Origin: Antarcticibacterium sp. 1MA-6-2
GTDB lineage: Bacteria; Bacteroidota; Bacteroidia; Flavobacteriales; Flavobacteriaceae
Assembly: GCF_021535135.1 (NCBI RefSeq)
Contig: NZ_CP091036.1
Span: forward strand, 310,001 to 374,000
Length of the DNA: 64,000 nt
Reading direction: 5' to 3'
Part shown: in pieces, positions 1-55,878 of the stretch
Layout: the number at the start of each line of letters is the position of its first letter
Numbering within the stretch: the stretch's first letter is position 1
Made by a program: the position numbers and the translations under genes
Notes under the pieces: model-generated
Database searches by the model: none
Told to the model about the DNA's origin: nothing
The model's input: only the letters and a program-made list of their open reading frames with translations

Positions 1-1796
1 TTGTTTTTATCACCTCCTGATTTTGATCCGGAATCTGATGCAGATCTTCTTCTTCCGCCGTCATTCGATGATCCGGAATCTGAAGATTTAGCTGATCTTC
101 TTCTACCTCCATCGTCAGAAGAACCTGCGTCGCGAGATTTAAAATCTCCACGGGGTTTTCTGCTTCTGGGTTTTCCTGAAGATCTTCCGCCACCACCTGT
201 ATCCTGTGATACTTCAACGCTAATTCGTCTACCCTGGTGTTGGAAATTTTCAAAGGTTGACAGGATCCTTTCCTTAATTTCTGAACTCGTATTGAAAAAA
301 GAAAAGCTATCTTTTACATCTACCCGGGTCACATCGTCGCGCCCAAGATCCAGCGTAGCCTTTAGAAAATCTTTCAACTTCATCCAGTCAAAATCATCCT
401 TGGCACCAACATTAATAAAGAACCTGGTGCTGTCTCCGCCTGAAGAATAATCCTCACGGCCTGATGATGCTCCTTTTACATTCAGGTCTGAGGAGTTTTT
501 ATAATAGTTAAAGAACCTTGTGAATTCCACAGAAAATACTTTTTTAATAAGTTCTTCTTTAGAAAAATCCTGAAGCACCTCTTCTATACTTGGAAGGTAA
601 GGATCTATATCGTGGTTAATCTTTGTGTTCTTAATGTCTGTTGCAAGGTGGAACAACTGCACGCGACAAATTTCCATTCCGTCAGGAATTTCTTTTTGCT
701 CAAATGGTTGCTTAATAATGCGCTCAATGCTTTTGATCTTTCGCACCTCACTTTTAGAGACAATGACCATTGAAACACCACTTTTCCCGGCACGGCTAAG
801 TTCTACCGCTACGGTGAGTGTAAACTTCAGGTTCATCTGGTAACTGGTAATGAATTACATGGGTAATATCATCTACATCAATTCCTCTAGCCGCAACATC
901 TGTAGCAACAAGCATTTGGATTTGTCTCGCTCTAAAACTCTTCATCACGAGATCCCGCTGATTTTGGCTTAAATCGCCGTGCAACGCAGCAGCATTGTAT
1001 CCGTCTTCAATAAGTTGTTCAGCAACCTTTTGAGTATCACGCTTGGTTCTACAAAAAACTACAGAAAAAATATCAGGATTTGCATCTGCAAGTCTTTTTA
1101 AGGCCGGATAACGGTCTCTGGAATTTACTGCGTAAAATTCATGAGATACATTTGAAGTTCCCTGATTTTTTGTTCCTACTGTAATCTCTACAGGAGTTCT
1201 CATGAACTTCTTTGCAATAGTAGAAACTTCCTGCGGCATGGTAGCCGAAAATAACCAGGTGTTTTTTTCACGTGGGGTATGAGACAATATGGCTGTAATG
1301 TCTTCATAAAAGCCCATATTCAGCATTTCATCGGCTTCATCAAGGATGCAAAACTCAATTTTAGAAATATCAACCAGTTTACGATTGATCATATCCTGCA
1401 TTCTTCCGGGAGTAGCCACAACTATTTGTGCTCCACGTTTTATTTGTTGAGCCTGATCTGTGATGCTGGCTCCTCCATAAATAGCTACGGTGTTTAATCC
1501 CGGAGTAAATTTGGAATAATTTTTAAGTTCATTGGTAATTTGTAAACACAATTCCCTTGTTGGGGAAAGAATTAATCCTTGCGTATGCTTCTTCTCAGCA
1601 GTGATCTTTTGAATTAGTGGGAAACCAAAAGCAGCAGTTTTCCCGGTACCGTTTGGGCAAGAGCCACCATATCTGTGTCTTCCTGCAGTAAAATAGGGAT
1701 CGCTTTTTCCTGCACTTCACTTGGACTCGTAAAGCCCATATCTTCGACAGCTTTAAGAATAGCAGGATTTAACCCTAATTGTTCAAATTTATTCAT
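1..1796 (-). CDS. DEAD-box ATP-dependent RNA helicase with DbpA-type RNA-binding domain (partial, two sequence lesions)
   Basis: Unwinds structured RNA, probably in ribosome assembly or cold adaptation. The N-terminus has a Q motif (FEQLGLNP), then motif I (AQTGTGKT after repair), DEAD motif II at LDEADEML, SAT motif III (FSATMPQE) and motif VI (HRSGRTGRAG after repair). A DbpA-like RNA-binding fold follows (FINVGAKDDFDWMKLKDFL), then a low-complexity Arg/Gly/Ser tail that runs off the left edge, so at least about 598 residues are present. The frame is broken at 1648-1652 (ACCGT where ACCGGT is needed inside the Walker motif) and at 795-801 (GCTAAGT for GCCGGT in the HRSGRTGR motif). Both restored sites are RCCGGY and both hit invariant motifs, so these are probably sequence errors. 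The Ser/Gly-rich open frame on the plus strand at 1-450 is its antisense shadow. Family call is sure; the exact paralogue (DeaD versus RhlE) is not. Confidence 0.9.
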
Positions 1797-1871
1797 ATAA
1801 AATTTTAATAAGTTGCAAAGGTAAGCATTAGTTTACAGCTTATTGCAGAAATCTTATAGGAATAAAAAGGC

Positions 1872-2444
1872 CTATTTTGAGAGATATTCTATTAAATCCT
1901 GAAGCGCAATTCCGCGATGACTAATCTTTGATTTTTCTTCTAAAGTCATTTCGGCAAATGTTTTTTCATAACCTTCAGGCTGAAAAACAGCATCGTAGCC
2001 AAATCCTTCGCTTCCCCTTCTTTCCGTGGTGATTGTTCCCTTACAAACTCCCAGGAACATAAATTGATGGTCATTAAGGTTTAATGCTATGACAGTTTTA
2101 AATTGTGCACTTCGATCTTTTACACCATCCAGCTCCTTTAAGAGCTTGTTAATATTGTTTTCGTTATTTTTATCTCCGCCTGCGTACCGGGCAGAGTAAA
2201 CTCCGGGTGCTCCATTAAGTACAGTTACTTCCAGCCCTGTATCGTCGGCAAAACAATCCATGTTATAATTGTTCTTGACAAAATCAGCTTTTAAAATAGC
2301 ATTTTCATCAATCGTATCGGCTGTTTCAGGAATTTCTTCATAACAGCAAATATCGTCCAGCGATAACAACTCAATTGATGCAGGCATAAGGGCCTGCACT
2401 TCTTTTAGTTTATTTTGGTTGTGTGTTGCAAATACCAGTTTCAT
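1872..2444 (-). CDS. rdgB: XTP/dITP diphosphatase (non-canonical purine NTP pyrophosphatase, RdgB/HAM1)
   Basis: Hydrolyses XTP and dITP to monophosphates and so keeps deaminated purines out of DNA and RNA. The protein opens with the family signature FATHNQNKLKEV (residues 4-15), has the metal/substrate loop FADDTGLEV near residue 65, and the C-terminal motifs GSEGFGYDAVFQPEG and KSKISHRG. At 190 residues it has the usual length. It lies 12 bp downstream of rlmH on the same strand, so the two are probably co-transcribed. No lesion is visible. Confidence 0.95.
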   Translation of the reverse strand: MKLVFATHNQNKLKEVQALMPASIELLSLDDICCYEEIPETADTIDENAILKADFVKNNYNMDCFADDTGLEVTVLNGAPGVYSARYAGGDKNNENNINKLLKELDGVKDRSAQFKTVIALNLNDHQFMFLGVCKGTITTERRGSEGFGYDAVFQPEGYEKTFAEMTLEEKSKISHRGIALQDLIEYLSK

Positions 2445-2456
2445 AGAGTGGTGGAA

Positions 2457-2930: not shown

Positions 2931-2971
2931 TTTATCCAGACTTTGCTACATTTACAAAAATAACTATTGCA

Positions 2972-3829: not shown

Positions 3830-3832
3830 TAA

Positions 3833-5901: not shown

Positions 5902-8356
5902 ATGACTTTCTTTATTAATGTTATTCTTCCACTTCCTTTAGAAAAGCAGTTTACCTACCAGGTAAGTAAGGCTGAGGCCGATTTTTTAAAGCCCGGGATG
6001 AGAGTAGCAGTGCCTTTTGGCAAGTCTAAGATCTACACGGGTATAGTTGCGGGAATTCATTCTAATCCACCCCAGTTATATGAGGCTAAGCCTATTGAAC
6101 AAATCCTGGATGAAACTCCAATTGTAACTCTTCATCAACTGGAATTTTGGAAATGGCTTGCACGCTATTATATGTGTGCGGAAGGTGAAGTCTTAAGAGC
6201 GGCATTACCCGGTGGTTTTCTTCTGGAAAGTGAGACGCTTATACAATTATCAGTTTCAGAAAATATCGACATTTCGCAGCTGGAAGATCAGGAATTATTA
6301 ATATTTGAAGCACTTCAAAAGCAGTCATCCTTAAAAATTCAGGAAGTAATGCAATTGCTGGATAAAAAAACCGTTCTTCCGGTGATTAATAAAATGGTGT
6401 CTAAGGGGGTAATTGTGGTTAACCAGGAAATTTTTGAGCAATACAAGCCAAAACTCATCAGGTATATCAGGATTAGTAAAGATTTTTCCGAAGAGGCAGC
6501 AATGCATCAGCTTCTGGATAATTTGAACAGAGCTCCAAAACAAAGAGACGCGGTCCTTGTATTTTTTCACCTTGAGGCACAAAAAAAGAAACTTGTAAAA
6601 GTAAAAGATCTCGTTCGTGCCAGCAGCAGTTCTTCAGCTACAATTAAGACTCTAATAGATAAAGGTGTTTTCGAGGAATATTATTTACAGACGGACAGAA
6701 TTAATTTTGATGCTGATGTGACTAATACTTCCCTTAGGTTAAATGACTGGCAGGAAAAAGCTTTTGAGGAAATAGAACAGCATTTTCAGGAAGGAGAAGT
6801 AGTTCTTTTGCACGGTATAACCTCTTCAGGTAAAACAGAACTTTATATAAAATTAATAGAAAAAGCTATTTCTGAAGGTAAACAGGTTTTGTACCTTCTT
6901 CCGGAAATTGCACTTACAGCTCAACTCGTTTCCCGGTTACAGGCATTTTTTGGAGAGCAGGTTCTCGTTTATCACAGCAAATATTCAGTAAATGAGAGAA
7001 TGGAGGTCTATAATCACGTTCTCAATTCCAGCGGAAAGGCTAAAATTGTGCTGGGAGCGCGATCTTCTCTTTTTCTTCCATTCCAGAACCTGGGTCTTAT
7101 TGTGGTAGATGAAGAACATGAAACAACTTTTAAGCAGTTTGATCCTGCTCCCAGGTATAATGCCCGGGATGCAGCGGTGGTTCTTAGCCAAATGCAAAAA
7201 GCACATCTTATACTGGGATCGGCCACTCCTTCCCTGGAGTCATATTTTAATGCTGTACACGACAAGTACCGCCTGGTAAACCTTAACAGAAGGTACGGGG
7301 AGGTGATGATTCCCGAAATAGAGATTGTAGATATAAAGGAGAAGTACAAAAAGAAAAAAATGACTAAGCCACTTTTCTGACAGGCTTCTGGAGGAAATTC
7401 AAATTGCATTGGACGAAGGGGAGCAGGTTATTCTTTTTCAGAACAGGAGGGGCTATTCTCCCATTCTTGAATGTACAACCTGTGGTTATTCCCCACAATG
7501 CCCCAATTGTGATGTTAGTCTTACTTTTCACAATCACAGCAACCAGTTGCGCTGTCACTACTGCGGATATCATATTGCAATGCAACAAAAGTGTATGGCC
7601 TGTGACAGTACAGAGCTTACAACCAAAGGTTTTGGCACAGAACAAATAGAAACTGAACTTAAAGCTCTTTTGCCCGATGCCAAAATTGGACGAATGGATC
7701 TGGATTCTACCCGTGGAAAGCATGGTCACCAAAAGATCATCACCTCATTTGAGCAGGAGGAGATCGATATTCTTGTAGGTACACAAATGTTGAGTAAGGG
7801 ACTGGACTTTAGAAAAGTTAGACTGGTGGGAATTATGAATGCCGATACTCTTCTCAATTTTCCCGATTTTCGTGCGCACGAGCGTAGTTTTCAGTTAATG
7901 TTACAGGTAGCGGGTAGAGCCGGAAGGACAAAGACAAGAGGAAAGGTTATTATTCAAACATACAATCCGCATCACCAGATAGTAAAACAGGTTTCTACCA
8001 ATAATTATGTAGAGATGTACAAGGAGCAACTGGAAGAGCGCTATCAATATAAATATCCCCCTTATTACAAACTAATAAAGCTTACGGTGAAAAGCCGTGA
8101 TTACAGCAAAACTAACGAGGCTGCTGAATGGGTAGCCAGGTCTTTAGGAAATGTATTCAAAGAAAATGTTCTGGGCCCAGAGTTTCCTCCTGTAGCTCGC
8201 ATTAGAAATGAATATTATAAAAACATCCTCATAAAAATACCTCCTAAGCAATCTCTGGGAAAAACTAAAAAGTATATAGAGAAAGTAATGGGCAGCTTTA
8301 AAGCTATAGGAATATGGCGAAGTGTTAGGGTAATTATTAATGTGGATCCTTATTAA
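5902..8356 (+). CDS. priA: Primosomal protein N' (PriA replication-restart helicase), one lesion
   Basis: 3'-to-5' DNA helicase that reloads the replisome at stalled forks. The N-terminal 3'-end-binding domain (FFINVILPLPLEKQFTYQV) is followed by Walker A (LLHGITSSGKTELY), the DEEH box (VVDEEHETTFKQ), GSATPSLES, a zinc-binding cysteine cluster (CTTCGYSPQCPNC, CHYCG, CMAC) and the QVAGRAGR motif VI. The frame breaks at 7363-7369: ACTAAGC follows ATG where MTGHFSD needs ACCGGC, a +1 shift. Repair gives 817 residues, the normal PriA size. I place the start at ATG 5902 (MTFFINV); the more upstream GTG at 5848 adds unconserved residues. The lesion is a presumed sequencing error at an RCCGGY site. 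Confidence 0.93.
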
Positions 8357-10956: not shown

Positions 10957-12200
10957 CTATTCATAATGAAGGGATTCCACAGGGTCTTGTTTTGCTGCTT
11001 TGCTGGCAGGATAACTCCCGGCTAAAATAGCTACAAGGATAGTAATACCTGTAGCCCAGAACATGGCAGTCCAGGGAGTGACAAAATTGAAGTTTGCTGC
11101 GCTGGAAACTGCGTAACCTACTAGTATGCCAAGAATTATTCCCAAGATCCCACCCAGTTGTCCAATAATTAATGTTTCCATGAAAAACTGAGTTGCTATA
11201 GTACCCCGTTTTGCCCCCAAAGCTTTTCTAATTCCTATCTCACGAGTACGTTCAGCTACAGAAACCAGCATAATATTCATTAAGGCAATGGACGAACCAA
11301 AAATTGTAATTATAGAAATGATCCAGGCTGCGAGGTTAAGGACGCTTGTAATCTGATAGATTTCATTTAAAAGATCATCACTCTTAGCCATTCCAAAATT
11401 ATTTTCTTCCACAGGGCTTAACGCACGAATATTTCGGAAAGTGATAATAGCTTCACTTTGCGCCCCTTCGAGCATCTCTTTGTCTTCAACTTTAATACTA
11501 ATGTTGTAATTAATATTGGGCTGGGTAAATAGGGAGCGAGCTAATTCAACAGGAATTAATACCCTTAGATCCTGATTGTTTCCAAAGGTAGAACCCTTGG
11601 ATTCCAAAATTCCAATAACACGGAATTTTGCTCCTCTAAGACTTATTTCTTTGTCTATGGGGGATACACCTTTAAATAAACCCTCGGCAAAATCGGCTCC
11701 CAGGATGGCAACATTGTTGTTATTCTGAATATCAAAATAGCTAAAATCCCTTCCCTCTTCTAAAGATAAGCCCGAGTTGGTAAGGTAATGCTCATTAACC
11801 CCTAAAATAGACACTTCAGGATCGGTTTTTTGATCTTCATATTTTACCTCTGCACTTAAGCCGTTCCTGTAAATGAAATGGAAGTTTGGGTGCCGGGATA
11901 TTCAAAAGTTTCCTTGAATTCTTTAACCTCCCTATAAGATATTACCGGGTTTACCTTAAATTTTTCACCACCACCCCGAGCCTGAGTGGTTAAGGAATAG
12001 CGTTGCAGGTTAAAAGTGTTAGCTCCCATAGAGGCAAAATCACTACTAATGGTATTTTCAAGAGCACTAACTGCACTTAATATTCCTACTAAAGCGGTTA
12101 TACCAATTGCAATTATGAGGACGGTAAGAATAGTTCTTAAGATCTGACCTTTTATGGAATCAAAAGCTATTCTTATGTTTTCCTTTAGGAGTTGAAACAT
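10957..12200 (-). CDS. ABC transporter permease, MacB/FtsX type (one lesion)
   Basis: N-terminal membrane helix (LRTILTVLIIAIGITALVGI, about residues 21-40), a periplasmic MacB-core domain, then three C-terminal helices forming the FtsX domain with the family motif ERTREIGIRKALGAKRG. Such permeases pair with a LolD/MacB-type ATPase and act mechanically on lipoproteins, antibiotics or peptides. The ATPase is not adjacent here and the substrate is unknown. The frame is broken at 11854-11861, where ACTTAAGC replaces the expected ACCGGC (plus strand), a +2 shift. Repair restores FTGTAGAEVKYED and gives 413 residues, a normal size. Presumed sequence error. Confidence 0.9.
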
Positions 12201-12386: not shown

Positions 12387-13757
12387 ATGGCACAAAAACC
12401 TTCCATCCCTAAAGGCACCAGGGATTTTAATCCTGTAGAAGTAGCAAAGCGCAATTATATAATTCATGAAATTCGTTCCTGTTTTGAAAAATTTGGATTT
12501 CAACCAATAGAAACTCCCAGCTTTGAAAATTCTGAAACTCTTATGGGGAAATATGGAGAAGAAGGGGACAGGCTTATATTTAAAATTCTTAACTCCGGAG
12601 ATTATTTGAGTAAAGCTGATGAAGATGCTTATACCGGGAAGGATAGTACCAAACTTACTTCTTCAATAAGTGAGAAAGCTTTAAGATATGATCTTACAGT
12701 TCCTTTTGCACGTTATGTGGTGCAACACCAAAGCGAGATTGAGTTTCCTTTTAAGCGTTATCAAATACAGCTAAGTATGGCGGGCAGACAGGCCGCAAAA
12801 AGGCCGTTTTCGTGAATTCTTTCAATGTGATGCAGATGTGGTAGGAAGTGATAGTCTTTGGCAGGAGGTAGAGTTTGTACAGCTATACGATGAAGTATTT
12901 ACAAAACTTAAACTGGAGGGTGTTACTATTAAGATCAACAATAGAAAAATTCTTTCGGGTTTTGCTGAAGTGATAGGAGAACAGGAGAAACTTATAGATT
13001 TCACCGTCGCTTTGGATAAACTGGATAAAATAGGAGAAGAAGGTGTAAAAAAAGAGATGCAGGAAAAAGGAATTTCTGAAAAAGCTCTACAAGCCATTCA
13101 ACCTATTTTTGGCTTATCGGGATCCTTTTTAGACAAAATAGAAATTTTAAAAAATATTCTAAGTGGTTCTGAAACTAGGTAAAAAGGAATTGAAGAACTG
13201 GAGTTTGTTCATAGTGCCATTTCAAATTTAGAGTTAAAATCTGCAAACCTGGAGCTTGATGTTACCCTTGCCCGCGGACTCAATTATTATACGGGAGCTA
13301 TATTTGAAGTTGCGGCTCCAGCTGGTGTACAAATGGGCTCCATTGGTGGTGGTGGTCGTTATGACGATCTTACCGGGATCTTTGGTCTCAAAAATATTAG
13401 CGGCGTAGGGATTTCTTTTGGTCTGGACAGGATCTACCTGGTACTTGAGGAATTAAATCTTTTCCCTGAAACAGTCACCCGTTCCACCAGGGTTCTTTTT
13501 ATCAATTTTGGAGAGGAGGAGGCTCTGTATGGGTTAAAGGCTATTAAACAATTGAGAGACAAAGGAATATTTGCTGAATTATTTCCAGATAGCGCAAAAA
13601 TGAAAAAACAAATGAATTATGCTAATAAAAGAAATATTCCTTTTGTAATACTTGCGGGACCGGAAGAAATGGAAGCAGTAAATTCGCCCTTAAAAATATG
13701 GAAACAGGAGACCAGGAAATAATTAACCTGGAGGAGTTAATAAATCAACTGCTATAA
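12387..13757 (+). CDS. hisS: Histidine--tRNA ligase (three lesions)
   Basis: Charges tRNA-His. Class II motif 1 is at [18 protein letters not shown], motif 2 follows the first lesion ([19 protein letters not shown] after repair), the histidine-A loop [15 protein letters not shown] and motif 3 [15 protein letters not shown] follow, then an anticodon-binding domain. Lesions are GCTAAGT at 12770-12776 for GCCGGT (+1), ACTAGGT at 13174-13180 for ACCGGT giving an in-frame TAA (net zero with one A lost), and a short A-run at 13692-13696 (one A missing) which hides the true end at 13757. The repaired length is 456 residues. As an essential single-copy enzyme it cannot really be broken three times; these are the strongest argument for sequencing artefacts. 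Confidence 0.95.
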
Positions 13758-14465: not shown

Positions 14466-16197
14466 TCAATTTGAAATTATTACTTTTTTAGAGATTACAG
14501 CACCATCTTGCGATTTTATTTTTATAACGTAGTATCCATTGCTATAATTCCCTGTAGATATTAAGTATTCCAGCTTCCCGGGATCTGCTTTGACTTCAAC
14601 TAATTTTCTGCCCGAAATATCGAAAAGAGCAATTGCTTCTGTATTAAAATTTGATTGGATGCGAATTTCAGTTCGTTGTTCTATGTTATTCTGAAATATG
14701 GCTATTTCTGAAGGAGGAGAAATTTGAGGAGGATCTAAAGGAGTTTCAAAAGTAAGGTAGAACCTTTGGGCGTAATCACCTTTATTCAAAACTAAGGAAA
14801 TAGGTTCAGAAATATTGTAGTATAGATTTTCTTCAGCATCATATAAGAAGATAGTTTCTTCGAAATTCCCTTTTTCAGCTAATAAAATTTCTACAGGTGT
14901 AGTTTCAGCAATAGAAAAGAAAATTGGCACCTTTTCGTTCCTTTGGAAGGGTTGAACATTTATAAGAAACTCCTCATGTTCAAGTCTCCAGCTAAGCATC
15001 TGATTCAAGAAGCATAAGATTCTTGGCGTCCATTGCTCTGTCTACTCCCGTGGTAGAGCCGGGATGAAATGCAAGTAATAATTGCCTTGTATAGGTGTTG
15101 TCAAAATTTATGTTTAGGCGGAGAAACGGTACTGATTCAGAATTTTTTAAAGGAAGATCAGAAGTTTTAAATTCTGAAATGCCCGCAGCTTCTTTTTGGT
15201 ATTTCCTGTACTCATTTTTAAAAAATATAGGTCCGTTCTCAAGGCCTTCAACCATAAAGCCCTGTGCAATAGGTAAAAATCTTCGGCCATAGATCTCTCC
15301 TGAAATTCCTGTATTTTCAACAGCTTGACCATCAGGAGAATATTTGAAGAAAACAGCAGGCACATACCCGTGAGTTCCTAAAGCAGGAGAGTATGCAGCG
15401 TAACCTCCCAGGTAATCCACAAGATAATGAGAAGTGACTTGTGCAGAGTCCCAGAAGTAGGCGATACTAAGTAATGTTGGAATTGTTAAGCAGGAAGGCG
15501 TTTAAATCCAGGGCAGAGGGATAGGGATTTCCTATTAATTTCACCTCTGCTGTTCTTACCTGCTGTACTATAAGACCATTGTTAGGTTTACCTCTAAAGT
15601 CATATCGCTGCTCATTCCCTGGATTGTTGGAAACCCCGTATAGATTGACTGAATTATTTACTCCCTCTACACCTTTCATAGTAAAACCTTCCCCCGCATC
15701 TAAATTGAAATTATTACCAAGATATTTCCATTCCCCGTAGTTACTGCCTTGTAATTTATAGATCCATTTAGCTGAAATAGTCAAAGGATTTGCTTTCCCG
15801 TTAAGCTCATTTGTGAAATTTGCTTTTCTACTTAAAAGGCGGGTTTGTGGTTCATAAATAATTTCTTCAAATTGATCTTTTCCCGGAAGTTTATCAACAG
15901 GAGAACTCCAGTAATTATAGGTATATTCAGAAGCTTTGCCTTCCTGAAAAACAGAGAGCGTACCGTTCCCCGTATTTGGATCATTATCTTGTCCCTGTAT
16001 TAACTGGGCTTCATTCCGTAGATAAAGGTTTGCTATTCCATTAGGATTCGGGGTAAGATGGATTTGCTTCTCCACAAAGAACACCTCGTTAGCCACATAG
16101 ACAAAGGTCTCTTTATTTTCTGCTTAGGTTTTACATAAAGCTGGGAAAAGCAGTAAAAAGGCAGGAAAAATAATGCTATGGTGTATATTTGTTTCAT
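14466..16197 (-). CDS. Secreted protein with type IX secretion sorting domain (three lesions)
   Basis: Signal peptide MKQIYTIALFFLPFYCFSQ, then a large, mostly beta-rich exported domain that I cannot assign to an enzyme class. The C-terminus is a Por-type T9SS sorting domain (FNTEAIALFDISGRKLVEV, then GYYVIKIKSQDGAVISKKVI, ending IISN). Expected route: Sec, periplasm, T9SS, then cell surface or medium. The frame is broken three times, at 14991-14997 (GCTAAGC for GCCGGC), 15466-15472 (ACTAAGT for ACCGGT) and 16122-16129 (GCTTAGGT for GCCGGT). All are RCCGGY sites and repair gives a continuous 575-residue protein. The T9SS machinery is not in this window. Confidence 0.85.
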
Positions 16198-16495: not shown

Positions 16496-17045
16496 AATTT
16501 AAGATAAATGATATAGTTGAAGTCCTGGATGATGCTTTAAAAGGAAAAGTAGTCGCAGTTGAAGGTGCAAATATTTCTATTGAAACTACGGAAGGTTTTT
16601 TGCTGAATTACCACGAAACAGAACTAATAAGAACCAGTCCTGAACAAAACAGATTAATATCAACTTCAGATGTGCTTAGGTTTCTGAAATAATCAAAGAG
16701 AAGCAATCCTCAAAAAAGCCAAGATCCATTAGGATTAAGCCGAAAGAAAGAAACGCACCTCCCATGGAGGTTGACCTTCATATTGAAAAGCTGGTAAATT
16801 CCTATAGAGGAATGACTAATCATGATATTCTTAGCCTGCAGCTCGACACTGCAAAAAGGCAAATTGAATTTGCTACCCGAAAAAGAATTCAAAAAATAGT
16901 ATTTATCCACGGGGTGGGAGAAGGCGTTTTAAAAGCCGAACTCGATTACCTTTTTGGTCGCTATGAAAATTTAAAGTACTATGATGCCGACTATCAAAAG
17001 TATGGTGTGGGAGCTACCGAGGTTTATCTGTTTCAGAATTACTAA
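16492..17045 (+). CDS. Smr/MutS2-like domain protein (one lesion)
   Basis: A short N-terminal beta domain (FKINDIVEVLDDALKGKVVAV), a basic linker, and a C-terminal Smr domain with MEVDLHIEKL and the signature FIHGVGEGVLKAEL. Smr domains bind or nick branched nucleic acid. This small stand-alone type, DUF2027/Smr-like, is common in Bacteroidota. The frame is broken at 16674-16681 where GCTTAGGT replaces GCCGGT (+2). Repair restores DVPVSEIIKEK and gives 183 residues. The start overlaps the stop of the preceding small membrane protein. Confidence 0.85.
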
Positions 17046-18160: not shown

Positions 18161-19309
18161 ATGAACAAAGTATATCTCGACAGCGCTGCAACCACGCAAA
18201 TACGTGAAGAAGTAATAGAAAAAATGGTAAGGGTAATGAAGGAAAACTACGGGAATCCTTCCTCTACCCATGCTTTTGGAAGATCTTCAAAATCCTTAAT
18301 TGAAAATGCCCGCAAGACTGTGGCAAAATTTCTAAACGTTTCAGCTGCAGAAATCATTTTTACATCTGGTGGAACTGAAGCTGATAACCTGGCTTTAAAC
18401 TCTGCGGTTCGCGACCTGGGAGTGAAGAGGATCATTACATCCAGAATAGAGCATCATGCTGTGTTATACACAGTTGAGCAACTGGAAAGAACATTTGATG
18501 TTGAAGTAATTTATGTGAACCTTGATAAAAAAGGGAGTGTAGATTTAAATCACCTTAAGGAGTTGTTGGAGGATTCTTCTCATAAGACCCTGGTTAGCCT
18601 GATGCATGTAAATAATGAGATTGGAACTATGCTGGATATTAAAGCTGTAGGTGAACTATGCAAGAAACACCAGGCGCTGTTCCACTCAGATACTGTTCAA
18701 TCAATTGGACATTTTGAACTGGATTTTTCTGATATTCCGGTCGATTTCACTGCGGTAAGCGCTCATAAATTTTACGGTCCAAAGGGAGTTGGATTTGCTT
18801 TTATAAGAAAAAACAGCGGCCTCAAACCTTTAATTTTTGGAGGAGAGCAGGAGCGGGGTACACGTGCTTAGACAGAAAGTGTTCATAACATTGTAGGATT
18901 AGAAGAGGCTCTTAAACTGGCTTACCAAAATCTTGAGGAAGAGAAAAAATATGTTTCTTCTCTAAAATCTCATTTTATTAATGAATTAAAAGAAGCCATT
19001 CCCGGTGTAAAATTTAACGGGCAATGTGAAAACCCAGATTTAAGTACATATACGCTGGTTAATATTTGCCTTCCTGTTTCTCAGGAAAAGGCCTTAATGC
19101 TTTTATTTCAGTTAGATCTTAAAGGAATCGCCTGTTCAAAGGGTAGTGCCTGCCAGAGTGGGAGTGATAAAGGATCTCATGTGCTAAGCGCTTTCCTAAC
19201 TGATGAAGATCTTGCAAAACCTTCCTTACGTTTCTCCTTTTCTCATTATAATACAAAAGAAGAAATTGCTTATGTAGTAAAAGTACTGAAGGAATTTGTA
19301 GAATCCTGA
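18161..19309 (+). CDS. Cysteine desulfurase (IscS/NifS-like), in-frame stop
   Basis: PLP enzyme that takes sulfur from cysteine for Fe-S clusters or tRNA thiolation. Seen are the N-terminal VYLDSAATTQ, PSSTHAFGR, SGGTEADNLAL, HVNNEIGT, the PLP-lysine region SAHKFYGPKGVGF, GGEQERGTRAG and the active-site cysteine loop SKGSACQSGS. The only defect is TAG at 18869-18871, where GCTTAG stands for GCCGGT (RAGTES expected); the downstream frame continues unchanged. Repaired length is 382 residues. The ATG at 18161 is chosen over TTG 18152. No Fe-S scaffold genes are adjacent, so IscS versus NifS/SufS-like is left open. Confidence 0.93.
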
Positions 19310-21677: not shown

Positions 21678-21970
21678 ATGTCGGACGCGCTTAAGATCAA
21701 ACTTTCAATTGCAGACAGGGTTTATCCCTTACAATAAAAGCCCATCAGGAAGAGGGGCTTCGTAAAGCTGCAAAAAAAATTGAGGCGATGATCAAGCAAT
21801 TTGAGCAAAGTTATGCCGTTAGGGATAAGCAGGATGTATTGGCGATGTGCGCCTTACAATTTGCAGCCCAAACAGAACAAAAAAGTTTAGATAATCAAAG
21901 CGAGGTGGAACTTGCAGGAGAAAAATTGAAATCACTCAATGATCTTCTTCAAAAACACCTGGCCACGTAA
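21678..21970 (+). CDS. zapA: Cell division protein ZapA (one frameshift)
   Basis: FtsZ-ring-associated protein that bundles FtsZ filaments. MSDALKIKLSIADRVYPL opens the globular domain and the C-terminal helix is rich in Gln/Glu. The frame breaks at the CCC run 21726-21728: one C is needed to restore RVYPLTIKAHQEEGLRKAA, giving 97 residues. This is a homopolymer-type error and not an RCCGGY site. Followed by the 6S-type RNA, an arrangement also seen in other phyla. Confidence 0.87.
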
Positions 21971-37209: not shown

Positions 37210-37944
37210 TTAGCTTTTTGAAACCGATCCAGATCCTGAAGTTTTAAAGTTCTGTTTATCCGGATTCCCTCTGTACTTAATATCTCCTGAACCTGATATC
37301 CGTGCAGCAAGTTCGCTTTCTACGGAAACCTCTATGTCTCCCGATCCTGTCACAGATGCTTTAACCATTTCGGTTTTAAGGTCGTAAGCCAGGAAATCAC
37401 CCGAGCCTGTTACGGTACAGTCAAGTGTTCTTGCTCTTCCTTTCAATTTTACGTCTCCGGAACCTGTAACTGTTCCTTCCAAATCTTCTACTTCAAGGTT
37501 CAGGTTCATATTTCCGGAACCGGTAACGGTAAGCTTAAAATTTTCTGCACGAATTACATCGCTGTTCTTAATATGGCCTGATCCTGTTAAAGTTACCGCA
37601 TCCAGATCTTCAAAAGGTACAGTAATTTTAATGGGATAATTTCTCGATGGCTCCAGGTTTACGCCTTTACGCACAGAAATTTTCAACTGGCCATTACTTA
37701 CTTCTGTCTCGAGATACTCCAGGAGGTTACTTTCAGCTTCAAGATCAATTTTTCCTTCTTTCCCGGCAACCAGTTGTACATCCATCATGCCTGTTACGGC
37801 TACGCGGTCATAATTGTCTACTGTTCTTGTTTGTTGCTTAACATCTTTATTACCCGTTACTTTTGTTGAATTACTCCACCACTGGGCGTTCACAGAATTT
37901 GCCGATAATATCACGACACTGAAAATTAAAATAAAATTTTTCAT
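37210..37944 (-). CDS. Head-GIN-domain surface protein (DUF2807)
   Basis: Signal peptide MKNFILIFSVVILSANSVNAQ, then a beta-solenoid-like domain. The motif T-G-S-G recurs about eight times roughly 20-25 residues apart (TLTGSGHI, TVTGSGNM, TVTGSGDV, TVTGSGDF, SVTGSGDI, RISGSGDI, TSGSGSV), the hallmark of putative auto-transporter adhesin head-GIN proteins (DUF2807). Last gene of the sigma/anti-sigma/DUF4097/GIN cluster. The only intact RCCGGY hexamer in the window (37519-37524) lies inside it. Start at ATG 37944. Confidence 0.85.
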   Translation of the reverse strand: MKNFILIFSVVILSANSVNAQWWSNSTKVTGNKDVKQQTRTVDNYDRVAVTGMMDVQLVAGKEGKIDLEAESNLLEYLETEVSNGQLKISVRKGVNLEPSRNYPIKITVPFEDLDAVTLTGSGHIKNSDVIRAENFKLTVTGSGNMNLNLEVEDLEGTVTGSGDVKLKGRARTLDCTVTGSGDFLAYDLKTEMVKASVTGSGDIEVSVESELAARISGSGDIKYRGNPDKQNFKTSGSGSVSKS

Positions 37945-40373: not shown

Positions 40374-42827
40374 ATGGCTAAATCTAAAATAATGAATATT
40401 GACAGTTTGTCATTACAGGGAATAGACGAGGATGCAGAGTTAATTCCTTTAATGACTCCTGAAGATGAAGAAGAAATAAATAAAGAAGACCTCCCGGATG
40501 TTCTGCCCATTTTACCCTTACGTAATACAGTTCTATTTCCAGGGGTAGTAATTCCTATTACAGCAGGAAGGGATACTTCAATAAAATTAATTAATGATGC
40601 TAATAACGGTACCAAAGTTATTGGCGTGGTTGCGCAAAAGGATGAGGAGGTAGAGAATCCCAAAACAAAGGATATACACAATACTTGTGTAGTTGCAAGA
40701 ATACTTCGGGTGCTTAAAATGCCCGATGGTAACACAACAGTAATTATCCAGGGAAAAAAACGCTTTAAGATCGGGGAAGTAATATCAGATAAACCGTATT
40801 TATCAGCAACTATAAACGAAGTACCGGAAGAGCGCCCGGAAGTTGATAATGCAGAGTTTGGTGCTATAATAGAGTCCATTAAAGATCTTGCGCTTCAAAT
40901 AATAAAGGGCAGTCCTAATATACCTACAGAAGCATCTTTTGCTATAAAGAACATTGAAAGCCCGTCTTTCCTTATAAACTTTGTTTCTTCTAATATGAAT
41001 CTTACAGTAGAAGAAAAGCAACAGCTTTTGGAAACAAATAATCTTAAGGACAGGGCTCTTGCGACTTTGAAGTATATGAATGTTGAGTTCCAGAAGCTGG
41101 AATTGAAGAACGATATCCAGAGCAAGGTGCAAAGCGATATGAGCCAGCAGCAGCGGGAGTATTTTCTACACCAGCAAATGAAAACCATTCAGGAAGAACT
41201 GGGTGGGGTATCTCATGAAGATGAAGTGGAGGAAATGCGTGTTCGCGCAAAAAAGAAAAAATGGGATGAGAAAGTAAAAAAGCATTTTAATAAAGAGCTT
41301 GCTAAAATGCAGCGAATGAATCCTCAGGTAGCAGAGTATTCTATTCAACGTAATTATCTTGATCTTTTTCTTGATCTTCCCTGGAATGATTTCAGCAAAG
41401 ATAAATTTGACCTGAAACGGGCGCAACGTATTTTGGACCGGGACCATTACGGTCTTGAAGATGTAAAGAAGCGAATCATTGAATATCTCGCAGTTCTTAA
41501 ATTGAGGAACGATATGAAGTCACCAATCCTGTGTCTTTATGGACCTCCGGGAGTTGGTAAAACTTCTTTAGGTAAATCTGTAGCCGAGGCTTTAGGGCGT
41601 GAGTATGTTAGGGTTTCTTTAGGGGGTTTACGCGATGAGGCCGAAATAAGAGGACACAGAAAAACGTATATAGGTGCAATGCCGGGAAGAATAGTTCAAA
41701 GTCTTAAGAAAGCGGGAACAAGTAATCCGGTTTTCGTTCTTGATGAGATTGATAAGCTGGCAAGCGGTAACCAGGGGGATCCTTCTTCAGCTTTACTGGA
41801 GGTTCTGGATCCTGAGCAAAACAGTGAGTTTCATGATAATTTCCTGGAGATGGGATTTGACCTTTCCAAGGTTATGTTTATTGCTACGGCAAACAGTTTA
41901 AATACTATTCAGCCTGCATTAAGAGACCGTATGGAAATAATCAATGTAACAGGTTATACAATAGAAGAGAAGGTAGAAATTGCAAAACAGCATTTACTTC
42001 CAAAACAGCTTGAGGAACACGGCTTGACTAAAGAGAATTTGAAAGTGGCCAAACCGCAACTGGAAAAGATCATTGAAGGGTACACAAGAGAATCGGGAGT
42101 TCGGGGACTTGAAAAGCAAATCGCAAAAGTGGTAAGGTACGCTGCCAAGAATATTGCGATGGATGAAAAATATAATATCAAAATAAGCAATGAAGATGTT
42201 ATAGAAATACTTGGAAGTCCGCGTCTGGAGAGAGATAAATATGAGAATAATGATGTTGCGGGAGTTGTGACTAAGTCTTGCCTGGACCCAGGTAGGGGGA
42301 GATATTCTTTTTATAGAATCCATACTTTCCCAGGGCAAGGGTAACCTTAATATAACAGGTAATCTTGGGAAGGTGATGAAAGAATCAGCTACCATTGCAA
42401 TGGAGTACATTAAATCAAATGCCGATAAATGGGGAATTTCTCCTGATGTCTTTAATAAGTATAACGTACACATTCACGTGCCTGAAGGTGCAACTCCAAA
42501 AGATGGACCAAGTGCAGGAATTACTATGTTAACCTCGCTGGTTTCACTCTTTACTCAACGTAAAGTAAAGAAGAGTATAGCAATGACGGGAGAAATTACT
42601 TTAAGAGGTAAAGTTCTGCTTAGGTAGGAGGGATCAAAGAAAAGATCCTGGCTGCAAAAAGAGCAAGTATTAAAGAGATCATTCTTTGTAAAGACAACGA
42701 AAGGGACATTGCTGAAATTAAGGACGAATATTTAAAAGGCCTTACTTTTCATTATGTAAAAGAGATGAGTGAAGTAATAGATATTGCGCTCACCCGGGAA
42801 CAGGTGGAGAACGCCAAGTCTCTGTAA
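40374..42827 (+). CDS. lon: ATP-dependent protease Lon (two lesions)
   Basis: Serine-lysine protease for damaged and regulatory proteins. LonN substrate domain ([15 protein letters not shown]), AAA+ Walker A ([15 protein letters not shown]), Walker B ([13 protein letters not shown]), and proteolytic domain with catalytic Ser in [12 protein letters not shown] and Lys in the [14 protein letters not shown] stretch. Lesions are ACTAAGT at 42270-42276 for ACCGGT (restores [13 protein letters not shown]) and GCTTAGGT at 42618-42625 for GCCGGT (restores RGKVLPVGGIKEK). Repaired length 816 residues. A terminator follows. Confidence 0.95.
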
Positions 42828-42902: not shown

Positions 42903-43612
42903 ATGAATAAAAACATTACCATTGCTATAGATGGATTTTCTTCAACAGGTAAAAGTACTGTTGCAAGACAGTTAGCCAAGGAACTGGGATATGTCTATGT
43001 GGACAGCTTAGTGCTATGTACAGAGCCGTCACCTTATTTGCAATGAGAAATTCTTTTATTTCTGAAGATGGATTAAACAAAGAATCCTTAATTAATAAAC
43101 TTCCTTCTATAAACCTTAAGTTCATTTTTGACACTAATATAGGTTATGCCGCTATTTACCTGAATGATGAGAATGTAGAAAAGGAGATCCGTTCCATGGA
43201 TGTTTCCAACTACGTGAGTAAAGTGGCCGCTATTTCCCAGGTAAGAGAAAAGCTGGTATCTCAACAACAAATTATGGGAAAAGAAAAAGGCGTTGTTATG
43301 GACGGGAGGGACATTGGCACCGTAGTTTTTCCCGATGCTGAATTAAAATTGTATATGACCGCTACTGCGGAAGAAAGAGCAAAGAGAAGATTTTTTGAAC
43401 TGAAGGAAAAAGGTGATAATGTTGAGTATGAAGCAGTGTTGAAAAACGTCCAGGAGCGGGATTTTCTTGATACCACAAGAGAAGATTCTCCTCTGGTAAA
43501 AGCTGAGGATGCCATAGAAATAGACAATTCTTCCCTAAATATAGATCAACAGTTTCAGAAAATTAGGGATCTCGCCCTTTCAAAAATTTCAGAAGTAAAT
43601 TCTACTGAATAA
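42903..43612 (+). CDS. cmk: (d)CMP kinase (one lesion)
   Basis: Phosphorylates CMP and dCMP. Walker [15 protein letters not shown]; the CMP-binding YVDTGAMYRAV appears after repair; [20 protein letters not shown] and the lid [13 protein letters not shown] follow. The frame breaks at 43005-43012 where AGCTTAGT stands for ACCGGT (GACACCGGTGCT expected, +2). Repaired length 235 residues. Usually followed by rpsA in Bacteroidota, as here. Essential enzyme, so the lesion is a sequence error. Confidence 0.94.
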
Positions 43613-45803: not shown

Positions 45804-46350
45804 ATGAGCCAAAAAGTGTTGCTTAATTCTAAAGAGATCAACATAATACTTCATCGTTTGGCCTGCCAGTTAATTGAAAATCATCCCGGATTAGAAAATA
45901 CAGTTCTCATAGGGATCCAGCCCAGGGGGATCTATCTCGCGAACAGAATTATTAAGATCCTGGAAGAAGACTATGGTATAAATAATATTCTTTCCGGCCA
46001 ATTAGATATTACCTTTTACAGAGATGATTTTAGAAGAAGCGATAAACCCCTGGAAGCCAATAAAACTAAAATAGATTTTATTGTTGAAGACAAACAAGTG
46101 GTGTTTATAGATGATGTACTGTACACAGGCCGAAGCATTCGCGCAGCCCTTACTGCTATTCAATCTTTTGGGCGGCCGAAGGAAATTGAACTACTCACTT
46201 TGATAGACCGAAGATTTAGCTAAGCATTTGCCCATACAACCCGATTATAACGGAAGACAGGTGGATGCTATAAACGATGAACAGGTAAAAGTACACTGGA
46301 AGGAAAACTACGGCGAAGATGCAGTTTATCTTATGCCTAAACAACAATAG
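45804..46350 (+). CDS. pyrR: Bifunctional pyr operon regulator/uracil phosphoribosyltransferase PyrR (one lesion)
   Basis: PRTase fold with the PRPP-binding loop VVFIDDVLYTGRSIRAAL, GIQPRGIYLANR, and a C-terminal LIDRRFSRHLPIQPDYNGRQV after repair. PyrR can attenuate pyr mRNA and make UMP. The frame breaks at 46219-46225, where GCTAAGC replaces GCCGGC (RFSRHLPI). Repaired length 181 residues; the stop at 46348-46350 leaves 3 bp to pyrB, so one operon. No anti-terminator structure could be confirmed upstream. Confidence 0.92.
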
Positions 46351-50464: not shown

Positions 50465-52564
50465 ATGGGTAACCACCAATATATAAACAGGGAAATAAGT
50501 TGGCTTCAATTTAATGCCCGGGTACTACAGGAAGCAGAAGATGAAACTGTACCTCTTATTGAGAGACTTCGGTTCCTGGGTATTTTCTCTAATAATTTAG
50601 ATGAATTTTTTAAAGTTAGATACGCTACTATTAAGCGTATTGATCTTGCGGGCAAAAGTGCCAAGAGTATATTAGGTGGTATTAAAGCCGGAAAATTACT
50701 TGAAGAAATAACCCAAATTGTAATTGAACAACAGTCAGAAAGTCTTTACGTCCTGGATAAAATCCAGAAACAATTAGAAGATTATGATATTCATATTATC
50801 AACGAAAAACAGGTTTCTTCCTCCCAGGAAACATTTATTAAAAATTATTTTCTCTCTGTTGTAAGTCCGGCCCTCGTAACAATTATCCTAAATGATCTTG
50901 TAGAGGTACCTAGCTTAAAAGATAGTGCTGCTTATCTGGCAGTTAAAATGATCATGAAAGAGGAGATCCCCCAACATGGGATTTCCAAATTACTTAATAG
51001 AAACTCGAGGGATAGGAGATATGTCCTTATTGAAATACCCCGAAGTATAGAGCGGTTTGTAGTTCTTCCGGAGGAGAATGGAAAGCAATACATCATTTTA
51101 CTCGATGATCTTATAAGGTATAACCTTAAAACGATTTTTAATATTTTTGAATACGAGAGTGTTTCTGCTCATATGATCAAAATAACCCGGGATGCCGAGT
51201 TAGATATTGATAGTGATTTGAGTAAAAGCTTTATTGAAAAAGTTTCTATGAGTGTTAAAGACCGCATTAAGGGAGATCCTGTGCGGTTTGTATATGATAT
51301 GAACATTGATGAGGATACTTTAAGTTTCCTTATGAATAAAATGGGGATTGATTCAACAGATAGTATAATTCCAGGGGGCCGCTATCATAACCGTCGGGAT
51401 TATATGAATTTTCCGAGTTTGGGGAATGAAAAGCTGCTTTACAAAGCTATAGAACCTTTACCTATCCCGGGATTGATCCTGCAGGGAAGCTTATTGGGAA
51501 TGATTGCCAAAAAAGATTATTTGCTTTATGCTCCTTATCAGGCGTTTCAATATGTCGTAAAGTTTTTAAGAGAGGCTGCATTGGACCCTAAAGTAAGATC
51601 TATAAAAATTACCATTTATCGTCTCGCTAAAATATCCCACATAGCCAGTTCTCTTATAAATGCGGTGAAAAATGGAAAAAAGGTTACGGTGCAAATAGAA
51701 CTACGTGCAAGATTTGACGAAGTAGCCAATATTCGTTATGCAGAGCAAATGCAGCAGGAAGGCGTAAATCTTATTTTTGGAGTGACTAAGTCTTAAAGTG
51801 CACTGCAAAGCCTGTGTTATAGAAAGGGAGGAAGCTAAAATGCGTAGGTACGGATTTTTAAGCAAAGTAATTTTAATGAATCTACTTCCAGAATATATAC
51901 AGATTACACATTATTTACAGGGAACCAGGAGCTTTTAAAAGAGTTTAATAAGGTGTTTGATTTCTTTGAAATCAACTATAAAGTGAGCAGATACAAACAT
52001 CTTTTAGTTTCACCTCATTATACAAGAACTGCATTAGTAAAACTTATACAAACCGAAATTGAAAATGCTCAAAACGGTAAAAAATCTGGTATCAAACTAA
52101 AGTTAAACAGCCTTTCAGATTTTGCATTAATTGATAAATTGTACGAGGCCAGCAAGGCCGGAGTTAAGATCAAACTAATCATTAGAGGGATATGCTCTTT
52201 AATTCCGGGAGTACCGGGCTTAAGTGATAATATTGAAGCAATAAGTATTATTGATAAATTTTTGGAACACCCAAGGGTCTATATTTTTGAAAACGACGGT
52301 GACGAAAAGATTTATATTTCTTCGGCTGACTGGATGACTCGGAATATGGATTTGAGGGTGGAAATTTCCTGTCCTATATATGACGTGGAGATCAAGAAGG
52401 AAATTATGGAAACCTTTGAAATTTGCTGGAATGATAATGTGAAAGCAAGAGTTCTTTGTAAGAACCAGGATAATGCTTATCGTAGAAATGATAAAAAACC
52501 ATTGCGCTCTCAATTCGCGTTATACGAATACTATCAACAAAAACTTGAAAATTTTAAAGGGTGA
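50465..52564 (+). CDS. ppk1: Polyphosphate kinase 1 (two lesions)
   Basis: Makes polyphosphate from ATP. N-terminal INREISWLQFNARVLQEAED, ATP-site stretches NNLDEFFKVRYATI and YRLAKISHIASSLINA, and the phospho-His region LKVHCKACVIER after repair; C-terminal DWMTRNMDLRVEISCPI. Lesions are ACTAAGT at 51785-51791 for ACCGGT (FGVTGLKVHCK) and AAAGT at 51864-51868 for ACCGGT (FLSTGNFNESTS, one base lost). Repaired length 699 residues. Its TGA overlaps the ppx start (GTGA). Confidence 0.94.
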
Positions 52565-53466: not shown

Positions 53467-54046
53467 CCGTGAATACTTTCTTTTTTGCCCAGCTCCTTCA
53501 TTATTTGAGCCTCAAATTCCAATAACTCCTGCCATTTTTTATCTACAATCTCCCGTTCCCCGTATTGTCGTGCAAAATTAAGGAAAAGGGTATAATGATT
53601 TGCCTCACTAATCATTAACTGCTAGGTAGAACTCCCGTAGTTCTTCATCTTCAAGTTGCTCTGAAAGTAACCTGAACCTTTCACAACTCCTGGCTTCTAT
53701 TAATGCAGCAATTAAAAGCTAAGTGAACCATTTGTGTGACACGGCTACCTCCTTTTGGAAAAAAGTCCCTTAATTGGATAACATATTCGTCTTTCCTGTC
53801 CCAGCCCAACTTTAATCCTTTAGCCAAAAGGCGATCGTGCACCATTTTAAAATGTCCCATTTCCTCTCTTACTAAAGCAGTCATAGCTTTTACAAGTTCG
53901 CTGTATTCCGGATAAGTAACAATAAGTGAGATAGCGGTAGACGCAGCTTTTTGTTCGCACCAGGCGTGATCAATGAGGATTTCTTCAATGTTTTTATCGG
54001 CAATTTTTGCCCATCTTGGATCTGTAGGTAGTTTTAAGCCCAGCAT
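53463..54046 (-). CDS. miaE: tRNA-(ms2io6A37)-hydroxylase MiaE (two lesions)
   Basis: Nonheme di-iron tRNA hydroxylase that oxidises ms2i6A37. Four-helix bundle with iron ligands in EEILIDHAWCEQKAAS, LVREEMGHFKMVHDRL and SEANHYTLFLNFAR. The frame is broken at 53718-53724 (GCTAAGT for GCCGGT, restores MVHRLLIAAL) and 53621-53627 (GCTAGGT for GCCGGT, restores EFYRQLMISEA). Repaired length 193 residues. Overlaps the ppx stop by 4 bp; convergent. Confidence 0.88.
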
Positions 54047-54048
54047 AA

Positions 54049-55878
54049 TTATATATCTAGATCAAATGTGGTTCGCAATTTTTCTATCAGGGGATTTTTT
54101 TCTTTTAGCTTATTATATTTTTCAATATTTGTAAAAGCATATTGCTTTGCCTTAGTCTCATTCACCTGAATTTCCAGAACAATAAATGTGTTCTGAAGCT
54201 TTTTCTTCAGAAAGCCCATCAATGGATTTTGCCCTCTCTCTAAATCCTTTTTCATAGTGTCTGCTTAAGCAATTCAATAGAAATAATATTGCCGTTTACC
54301 TTCGGCATATCGGTTTCCATAATCGAGGCGAGGATCTTTTCTCCCTTGTTTTTTAATCTATGAATATAGTCGTCCCAGGCGGCGTGAAGTTGAGTTTCAG
54401 TAAATTTTTCATTTTTCTCCTCTATAGAGGAAGCGGTTTTTCCCTGTTGCTTTGCAAGTAGTTCTTTTTTCTTTCTAATGCTGGCCAGGGATAGTCCTGA
54501 AACTTTCTCTTTTGATATCGCCGCAGTATGAGGAATGGATTCTTCAGTTTTTTGCTGAGAACGCAGCGGTTGTTCATCTGGATGGCAATTTGTTTTTTCC
54601 GGGTCTGGCAAGCCTTCCGCAGGTACTTTGTCGGCCTTTTCAGGATCAGGATTGTTTTGAGCCGGAACCTGAGATTCTACTGTGGGTGCGGAATCTCCTT
54701 TTGCATATTCGTTCTCACTTATTACTCTTCTTTCTTCTGAAGTAAGATTTTTTGGAGAAGTGGGTGCAATGTTTTTAAAATGTTTAGAAGGAATTATGAA
54801 TCCCTCAGGCTTTTTTTTCTCCATCAAAAGTGATAGAGGCAAGTTGCATAAGGCATAATTCTACGAGGAGCCGTTGGTTACGGCTGCTTTTGTATTTTAG
54901 ATCACACTCATTAGCGAGTTCTATACCCTGCATTAAAAACGCTTCACTGGTTTGGCGCGCCTGCTCATAATAGCTTGTTTTTGTAGTTTCTCCAACTTCC
55001 AGAAGGCTAATTGTTTTTGGGTTTCGGCAAACCAGTAAGTCCCGAAAATGAGAAGCAAGACCCGCAATGAAATGATGTCCGTCAAAACCACGGGCAAGGA
55101 TCTCATTAAATTCCACAAGTAATTGCGGAATGTTATTTTCCAGGATTAGCTGGGTAATATTGAGGTATGTTTCATAATCCAGCACATTTAGGTTTTCTGT
55201 CACGGCCTGTCTTGTGAGGCTGGCACCGCTGAAACTTACCACTCTGTCATAAATTGAAAGCGCATCCCGCATAGCACCATCAGCTTTTTGGGCGATTATG
55301 TGTAGAGCATCTTCTTCGGCTTCGACACCTTCCTGTTCTGCAATGTATGCGAGATAATTTCTTACATCTGTCACCGTAATTCTCTTAAAGTCAAAAATTT
55401 GACATCTCGAGAGAATGGTAGGGATTATTTTATGTTTTTCAGTTGTTGCAAGAATAAAGATCGCGTGTTTTGGCGGCTCTTCCAAGGTCTTAAGAAATGC
55501 ATTAAATGCTGAAGCGGAGAGCATGTGTACTTCATCAATAATGTAAACTTTGTATTTTCCAACCTGGGGCGGGATCCTTACCTGGTCGATAAGGTTTCTT
55601 ATATCGTCAACAGAATTGTTTGAAGCAGCATCAAGTTCAAAAATATTGAAAGCAAAATCTTCATCCGGTTTTTGAGTCCCGTCATGATTGATCATTTTTG
55701 CTAAAATACGGGCACAGGTTGTTTTTCCAACTCCACGTGGACCTGTGAAAAGCAGGGCCTGTGCAAGGTGGTTGTGATTAATTGCATTTAAAAGTGTGTT
55801 TGTAATTGCCTGCTGGCCAACCACATCTTTAAATGTTTGAGGGCGGTACTTTCGTGCCGATACAACAAAGTGCTCCAT
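54049..55878 (-). CDS. dnaX: DNA polymerase III subunit gamma/tau (two lesions)
   Basis: Clamp-loader ATPase. N-terminal VSARKYRPQTFKDVVGQQAI, Walker A LLFTGPRGVGKTTCAR, Walker B VYIIDEVHMLS, sensor FILATTEKHKI; then a low-complexity Pro/Glu linker and a C-terminal domain ending EKLRTTFDLDI. The zero frame ends at GEKKA* (54805) because of an A8 run at 54811-54818; A7 (or A10) restores the tau frame. GCTTAAGC at 54263-54270 for GCCGGC (+2) breaks the C-terminal domain; repair restores IELPADTMKKDLER. Total 608 residues if A7. No zinc cluster is seen between residues 60 and 80, as in many Bacteroidota. Confidence 0.9.

Follow-up and report, generated by a model that had tools for sequence, protein, structure and literature searches.

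The hexamer RCCGGY is almost missing from the assembled genome of Antarcticibacterium sp. 1MA-6-2 (G000), and within the 64,000-nucleotide stretch analysed here (the window: bases 310,001-374,000 of a single-contig genome of 4,383,004 bases; GC content of the window 37.6%) short strings that break gene frames stand in its place. This observation, depletion together with lesions, is confirmed. It is best explained, with a probability of roughly 0.93, by the miscalling of 5-methylcytosine (m5C) in RCCGGY in an unpolished, nanopore-type assembly of this marine bacterium, the lesions being consensus base-calling errors and not mutations. We infer both the platform, probably nanopore-only, and the modified base. 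An artefact of this kind is already known; what is new is, most probably, the RCCGGY type II restriction-modification system of a known kind that it exposes. The original prediction, made from the letters of the window, had proposed a miscalled modified palindrome, and this reading is now supported by the depletion, by frame breaks detected blind to the motif, and by a candidate methyltransferase.

Loss of RCCGGY from the assembly

As judged from Lon protease, the closest named relatives of G000 belong to Gillisia (Flavobacteriaceae), G. limnaea and one Gillisia metagenome-assembled genome each being 91% identical among the best 80 loci. Four syntenic Gillisia relatives (G011, G001, G003 and G005, 100 kb each) were aligned in detail with the window, and the hexamer was counted in 30 related genomes, 15 of the same genus and 15 more distant, using the same pattern as in G000.

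The window holds one intact RCCGGY, against 53 RCCGGR, 56 YCCGGR and 50 YCCGGY. These 159 sites in other CCGG contexts are unaffected, as had originally been claimed. About 47 RCCGGY are expected in the window from flank frequencies (Poisson P ~1e-19 for the one seen), and comparison with 400 kb of the four Gillisia relatives gives Fisher P ~1e-15. The surviving site is:

37519..37524, strand not given: sole intact RCCGGY of the window (ACCGGT), by direct count

The shortage extends beyond the window. Twenty evenly spaced 20-kb stretches contain 5 RCCGGY, versus 367, 372 and 286 sites of the other flank classes, and an unbroken 444-kb stretch that takes in the window contains 10, versus 366, 437 and 393. 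When these samples are pooled and their overlaps removed (824 kb), 14 sites are observed where 594 are expected from the flanks, a loss of about 98%. Measured against relatives with both strands counted, RCCGGY (28 versus 1,199) is the lowest of all the cores ranked. Over the whole genome, the RCCGGY pattern RCCGGYNNNNRY gives 11 + 10 = 21 matches, the like-for-like control YCCGGRNNNNRY gives 1,027 + 985 = 2,012, and the reversed-pattern control gives 515 + 561. Intact sites elsewhere in the assembly were thus looked for and are few. All 15 congeners retain the hexamer (173 to 1,107 matches on each strand), and the 15 more distant relatives have fewer sites where their genomes are small.

ACCGGT makes up 11 of the 14 intact sites in the 824 kb of G000 and a lower share, 119 of 302, in the relatives.

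Frame breaks at the missing sites

The original prediction listed 28 lesions, each placed at a former RCCGGY. They are given below in window coordinates, strand not given. The number of relatives is that in which the frame change is supported, and relatives named as carrying RCCGGY do so at the same place.

795..801: RCTAAGY, DEAD-box helicase gene; 3 relatives; RCCGGY in G011; Pfam DEAD and Helicase_C
1648..1652: short lesion, gene originally named DEAD-box; 3 relatives; RCCGGY in G011
7363..7369: RCTAAGY, priA; RCCGGY in G011, G003 and G005; adjoins a 3-relative cluster at 7335-7349; PriA_C downstream
11854..11861: RCTTAAGY, FtsX/MacB-type permease; 3 relatives; Pfam match
12770..12776: RCTAAGY, hisS, the only hisS found in the genome being broken; 1 relative in the scan; RCCGGY in G011
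13174..13180: RCTAGGY, hisS; the frame stops at this point; alignments show no net shift; partly verified
14991..14997: RCTAAGY; 2 relatives; RCCGGY in G011
15466..15472: RCTAAGY; 3 relatives
16122..16129: RCTTAGGY, originally named T9SS protein; 1 relative in the scan; length change in 3 alignments; fragment without Pfam match
16674..16681: RCTTAGGY, Smr; 3 relatives; Smr domain downstream
18866..18871: length-neutral lesion ending the frame of a class V aminotransferase (cysteine desulfurase); RCCGGY in G011; Aminotran_5
19871..19877: RCTTAGY, originally named M23; 3 relatives; fragment 19873-20688 without Pfam match
20746..20753: RCTCCGGY, M23 gene; 3 relatives; RCCGGY in G005 and G003; Peptidase_M23
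22907..22913: RCTAAGY, rny; 2 relatives; RCCGGY in G011; RNase_Y_N
25339..25345: RCTAAGY, tyrosine recombinase (xerD); 4 relatives; Phage_integrase
27254..27261: reported RCCTAGGY, originally named barrel protein; one weak alignment; not verified
27367..27372: reported lesion in the same barrel-protein gene as 27254; one weak alignment; not verified
31099..31105: RCTAAGY, lpd; 4 relatives; Pyr_redox domains
37073..37077: short lesion, MFS/Atg22-like transporter; 1 relative in the scan; RCCGGY in G011; Pfam match
42270..42276: RCTAAGY, lon; 4 relatives; RCCGGY in G011 and G003; Pfam match
42618..42625: RCTTAGGY, lon; 4 relatives; RCCGGY in G001
43005..43012: lesion, cmk; 4 relatives; RCCGGY in G001; Cytidylate_kin
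46219..46225: RCTAAGY, pyrR; 2 relatives; Pribosyltran
51785..51791: RCTAAGY, ppk1; +1 in 3 alignments; PP_kinase
51864..51868: lesion, ppk1; -1 in 3 alignments, the frame returning
53621..53627: RCTAGGY, originally named miaE; 4 relatives; RCCGGY in G003
53718..53724: RCTAAGY, miaE; 4 relatives; MiaE Pfam match
54263..54270: RCTTAAGY, originally placed at dnaX; G011 and G001 in gene-sense frames; RCCGGY in G001; neighbouring fragment 54805-55875 is DnaX, fragment adjoining the lesion without Pfam match

Frame breaks were collected blind to the motif, by tblastn of the open reading frames (ORFs) of the four relatives against the window and retention of adjacent matches in differing frames. The scan returned 43 raw clusters, among which 22 of the 28 lesions reappear, 19 of them supported by at least two relatives (two of these being counted through the cluster adjoining 7363 and, for 54263, by adding split clusters) and three, at 12770, 16122 and 37073, by a single one. 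When the 100 kb of each relative was scanned with the ORFs of the other three, 11, 2, 8 and 6 raw clusters were obtained, of which 2, 0, 1 and 1 had at least two relatives, a comparison that slightly favours the window, as it was scanned with four relatives and the controls with three. The lesions are therefore not shared: the congeners lack the depletion and the four aligned relatives lack the frameshifts.

Six listed sites escaped the scan. The lesion at 18866 is length-neutral and terminates the frame. Those at 51785 and 51864 are offset by +1 and -1 against each of the three relatives aligned there, and this pair is visible in the alignments. At 13174 a stop is present and a net shift is absent, so that this site is partly verified, while neither 27254 nor 27367 could be confirmed, the gene that holds them being poorly conserved and covered by a single weak alignment. 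An RCCGGY stands at the same place in at least one relative for 14 of the 28 lesions, and 23 of the 28 intervals read exactly R-C...G-Y (the exceptions being 18866, 27367, 37073, 43005 and 51864).

The halves of the broken genes still match relatives on both sides. The gene names given originally also hold for the most part: Pfam agrees for all ten fragments of one set (priA, lon, cmk, ppk1, rny, cysteine desulfurase, lpd, dnaX, pyrR and tyrosine recombinase) and for seven names of a second (hisS, through its G011 orthologue, a histidyl-tRNA synthetase; DEAD-box helicase; FtsX-type permease; MFS-like, as Atg22; MiaE; Smr; M23), while three other fragments submitted in that second set had no match. 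The histidyl-tRNA synthetase gene hisS is essential, and it was found in G000 only as the broken copy of the window, with three in-frame TAA codons.

Other breakpoints supported by at least two relatives lie at 21725, 31960, 32262, 48085 and 54811, and a few (21245, 26890, 43652 and 60421) rest on one. At 31960, 32262 and 54811 the break lies away from RCCGGY, in T runs shorter than those of the three or four Gillisia relatives aligned there, as is typical of long-read homopolymer residue; the original account is refined to this extent, a few window frameshifts being homopolymer indels. No indel is visible in the alignment at 21725, where at least two relatives support a break. Apart from these few homopolymer indels, the errors are confined to one short motif and spare other CCGG contexts. 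Separately, the frame at 48085 is broken by a single base that two relatives lack, at a place with neither RCCGGY nor a long homopolymer. Programmed frameshifting was considered as a cause of the frame breaks and rejected.

That the hexamer is simply avoided in evolution as a restriction site, the frameshifts being unrelated, would have a precedent, as rCCGGy is under-represented in cyanobacteria carrying DmtD (PMC4390886). Avoidance may contribute to a mild degree, since the 28 lesions and one intact site of the window compare with about 47 expected. Avoidance would, however, yield in-frame substitutions and not frameshifts exactly where relatives have RCCGGY, and a loss of about 98% is unlike anything seen in the 15 congeners or in G180, a genome described below that carries the same enzymes; as the explanation of the pattern it has a negligible probability.

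Replacement strings

Between R and Y, and with both strands counted, CTAAG/CTTAG occurs 289 times where 157 are expected from relatives, CTAGG/CCTAG 82 times versus 32, and CCTAGG 36 times versus 6. RCTAAGY is unevenly distributed between the strands, with a forward to reverse ratio of 20:3 in the window and 104:51 in the 444 kb (G000:C1:230001-674000; control flanks 73:77). It is near balance genome-wide (810:740), and the CTAGG and CTTAGG forms are balanced. A cause linked to replication or to the gene strand was rejected, the bias being local only and 6 of the 12 CTAAG lesions falling in forward genes and 6 in reverse genes. The local bias perhaps reflects the orientation of draft polishing.

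A candidate RCCGGY methyltransferase and its neighbour

Whole-genome enzyme profile searches of G000 covered PF00145, PF01555 and PF07832. A single PF00145 match was found at E <= 0.001, a candidate C5-cytosine methyltransferase of 394 amino acids (aa), termed P0001, whose single open frame is intact. It lies outside the window and adjoins an endonuclease gene, P0002. No match to PF01555 was found in the whole genome; the PF07832 search was also empty, a result that does not show absence, as control genomes gave no match either. The features of the locus are as follows (strand not given).

G000:C1:3,944,957-3,946,141: P0001, C5-cytosine methyltransferase (PF00145)
G000:C1:3,943,900-3,944,979: P0002, endonuclease, 359 aa, its start overlapped by the end of P0001
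L157:16515-17493 (G000:C1:3946515-3947493): vsr mismatch endonuclease and tyrosine-integrase gene, upstream of P0001, past a 76-aa ORF
L157:10885-11928: recombinase-family ORF, downstream

Given the vsr, integrase and recombinase genes around it, the pair is likely to sit on a mobile defence island, and a nearby vsr gene fits an m5C writer.

The best four plasmid homologues of P0001 come from Nostoc HK-01, Moraxella osloensis, Rhizobium leguminosarum and Geobacillus subterraneus pBsrF30, a plasmid name that presumably refers to BsrFI. The Nostoc, Moraxella and pBsrF30 homologues, to which P0001 is 40-55% identical (48% for the Rhizobium homologue), adjoin genes annotated as Cfr10I or Cfr10I/Bse634I endonucleases, and all three neighbours were confirmed as PF07832. 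Cfr10I, Bse634I and BsrFI cut RCCGGY. A C-terminal block, EGD..KS.KRLHR.RYSPT..YGNNEVHLHP, is invariant in all five aligned enzymes, three of which adjoin PF07832 enzymes, and may constitute the target-recognition region. By this kinship, P0001 is predicted to methylate RCCGGY in G000. P0002 matches the PADLOC type II model REase_II PDLC03534 at 7e-132, its sole match among the PADLOC models. Searches of the PDB with P0002 and with its two-sequence profile gave no match, nor did a search of a phage collection with P0002. Among the plasmid neighbours of distant P0002 relatives, no annotated DNA methyltransferase adjoins (one record has a TIGR04325-family methyltransferase further off), so that the specificity of P0002 is not derivable from neighbours.

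The favoured reading would thus involve the following steps. G000 carries a type II restriction-modification pair, P0001 and P0002, of which P0001 would methylate RCCGGY, most likely at the first C of each strand, the position modified by those functional counterparts that have been studied. Sequencing of native DNA would then have used a method poor at modified bases, most likely nanopore with neither short-read nor methylation-aware polishing. In the consensus, the modified palindrome, being symmetrical, would collapse into strings such as CTAAG, CTTAG and CTAGG.

A second genome with the same enzymes

P0001 was searched for at E <= 1e-60 in 397 genomes of the same family, including G000, drawn evenly from a larger group. 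It was found in G000 and in one other genome, G180, which holds the same methyltransferase-endonuclease pair at 63% and 76% identity. G180 keeps RCCGGY (RCCGGYNNNNRY gives 318 + 328 = 646 matches) and has no excess of RCTAAGY (418 + 409, control 766 + 803). Having the pair yet intact sites, it indicates that the enzymes alone do not remove RCCGGY, and the manner of sequencing is the likeliest remaining difference between the two genomes. In G180, a 357-aa ORF and a 2,033-aa ORF that reads as helicase-like in translation adjoin the homologous pair (L163:7311-14485), which suggests a larger defence cluster at that locus.

G180 also bears on whether the genome itself was altered, its RCCGGY sites having been destroyed by restriction attack with error-prone repair, or by mutation. 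Such a history would fit an assembly from which the sites are nearly absent, and is practically excluded. It would require a single motif to have been hit some thousands of times, often with loss of the reading frame and in genes that include the only hisS as well as lon, cmk and priA, in an assembly rated 97.25% complete; both halves of the broken genes match relatives, and the sites of G180 are intact under the same enzymes. Some thousands of simultaneous lesions at one palindrome are not credible in a living cell, and the assembled sequence cannot be the real genome.

Points against miscalled m5C and comparison with known systems

Several points weigh against miscalled m5C as the explanation. 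Of the missing sites, the lesion strings named above account for no more than about one in three; the remainder are other strings or real sequence differences. The whole-genome ratio of RCTAAGY to its reversed control is 1.66 in G000, yet 1.60 in G005, so that this count alone proves nothing. In a crude count, length changes lie near 30 of 173 CCGG of the relatives in the RY class and near 57 of 495 elsewhere, so that the two differ less than in the other lines of evidence. One distant relative, G029, is also site-poor (11 + 8), though its genome is smaller and its reversed-pattern control gives only 59 + 61; among the other distant relatives with small genomes, G028 has 23 + 20 (control 50 + 52) and G030 has 26 + 36 (control 46 + 51). 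On the enzyme side, no PF07832 was found in three downstream ORFs (at least 150 aa) beside the Rhizobium plasmid homologue, in an unannotated record. P0002 itself does not belong to the Cfr10I/Bse634I family by sequence: it matches nothing in Pfam and is not significantly similar to the endonuclease of pBsrF30. The RCCGGY-specific methyltransferase originally predicted has a good candidate, while the endonuclease beside it is not detectably Cfr10I/Bse634I-like by sequence. Finally, newer pipelines make few methylation errors (6.5% of errors; PMC12392509), and the methylation errors described are mostly two-base ambiguities (PMC11610573), compared with which insertions at most G000 sites are harsher.

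This severity, with insertions and about 98% of sites lost, would also suit the same miscalling caused by a modification other than the m5C of P0001 (e.g., N4-methylation or a bulkier change) from an unrecognised enzyme, and the whole-genome searches covered three profiles only. A PF01555 enzyme was not found, and a methyltransferase of RCCGGY kinship is present with vsr nearby; another modification is accordingly an improbable source of the errors, though it is the least improbable of the three alternatives.

Methylated motifs are a documented source of consensus error in ONT (Oxford Nanopore Technologies) data, large with older basecallers and smaller with recent pipelines (PMC12392509, PMC11610573). 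In a Klebsiella genome, about 70% of the consensus errors of the then-current ONT basecallers fell in the m5C Dcm motif (PMC6591954). These Dcm CCWGG errors (PMC6591954, PMC12392509, PMC11610573) resemble the G000 pattern in that errors cluster genome-wide in one methyltransferase motif, homopolymer indels forming another class; they differ in that nearly all sites are affected in G000, often with insertions, and that the pattern is known here from the assembly alone. A literature search (titles and abstract openings, among the matches listed) found nothing on RCCGGY miscalling, which is no proof that none exists.

RCCGGY m5C methyltransferases have also been described. In E. faecium, m5C at the first C of RCCGGY (EFSG_00659) was shown by bisulfite sequencing and AgeI protection (PMC6328761); the same position is reported for VchM of V. 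cholerae (PMC6555945, PMC13201069), and DmtD is a further member of this group (PMC4390886). P0001 is likewise a C5 enzyme and has the conserved C-terminal block in common with homologues beside Cfr10I/Bse634I endonucleases, its kinship to the BsrFI/Cfr10I type being judged from the plasmid homologues. Its partner departs from BsrFI/Cfr10I-type systems in not being Bse634I-like: the P0002 gene adjoins a methyltransferase of the kind that accompanies the PF07832 family and lacks the PF07832 match that the three plasmid neighbours have. It is conceivable, if rather doubtful, that P0002 and its 76%-identical G180 counterpart represent a separate endonuclease lineage, with an RCCGGY specificity independent of Cfr10I/Bse634I and paired with a BsrFI-type methyltransferase, and that miscalling this nearly complete and this rich in insertions could allow methylation motifs to be read from unpolished long-read assemblies by sequence alone.

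Implications

At about 0.4 listed lesions per kb, extrapolation to the 4.4-Mb genome gives a number of false lesions on the order of two thousand, and gene calls, pseudogene counts and phylogenies taken from this assembly are unsafe. The loss of a hexamer, together with CTAAG-type strings, could flag a methylation motif and its enzyme without reads; in G000, the pattern pointed the way to P0001, the one C5 methyltransferase found there. As for the bacterium itself, dozens of healthy genes look broken, and the damage lies most likely in the assembly and not in the organism.

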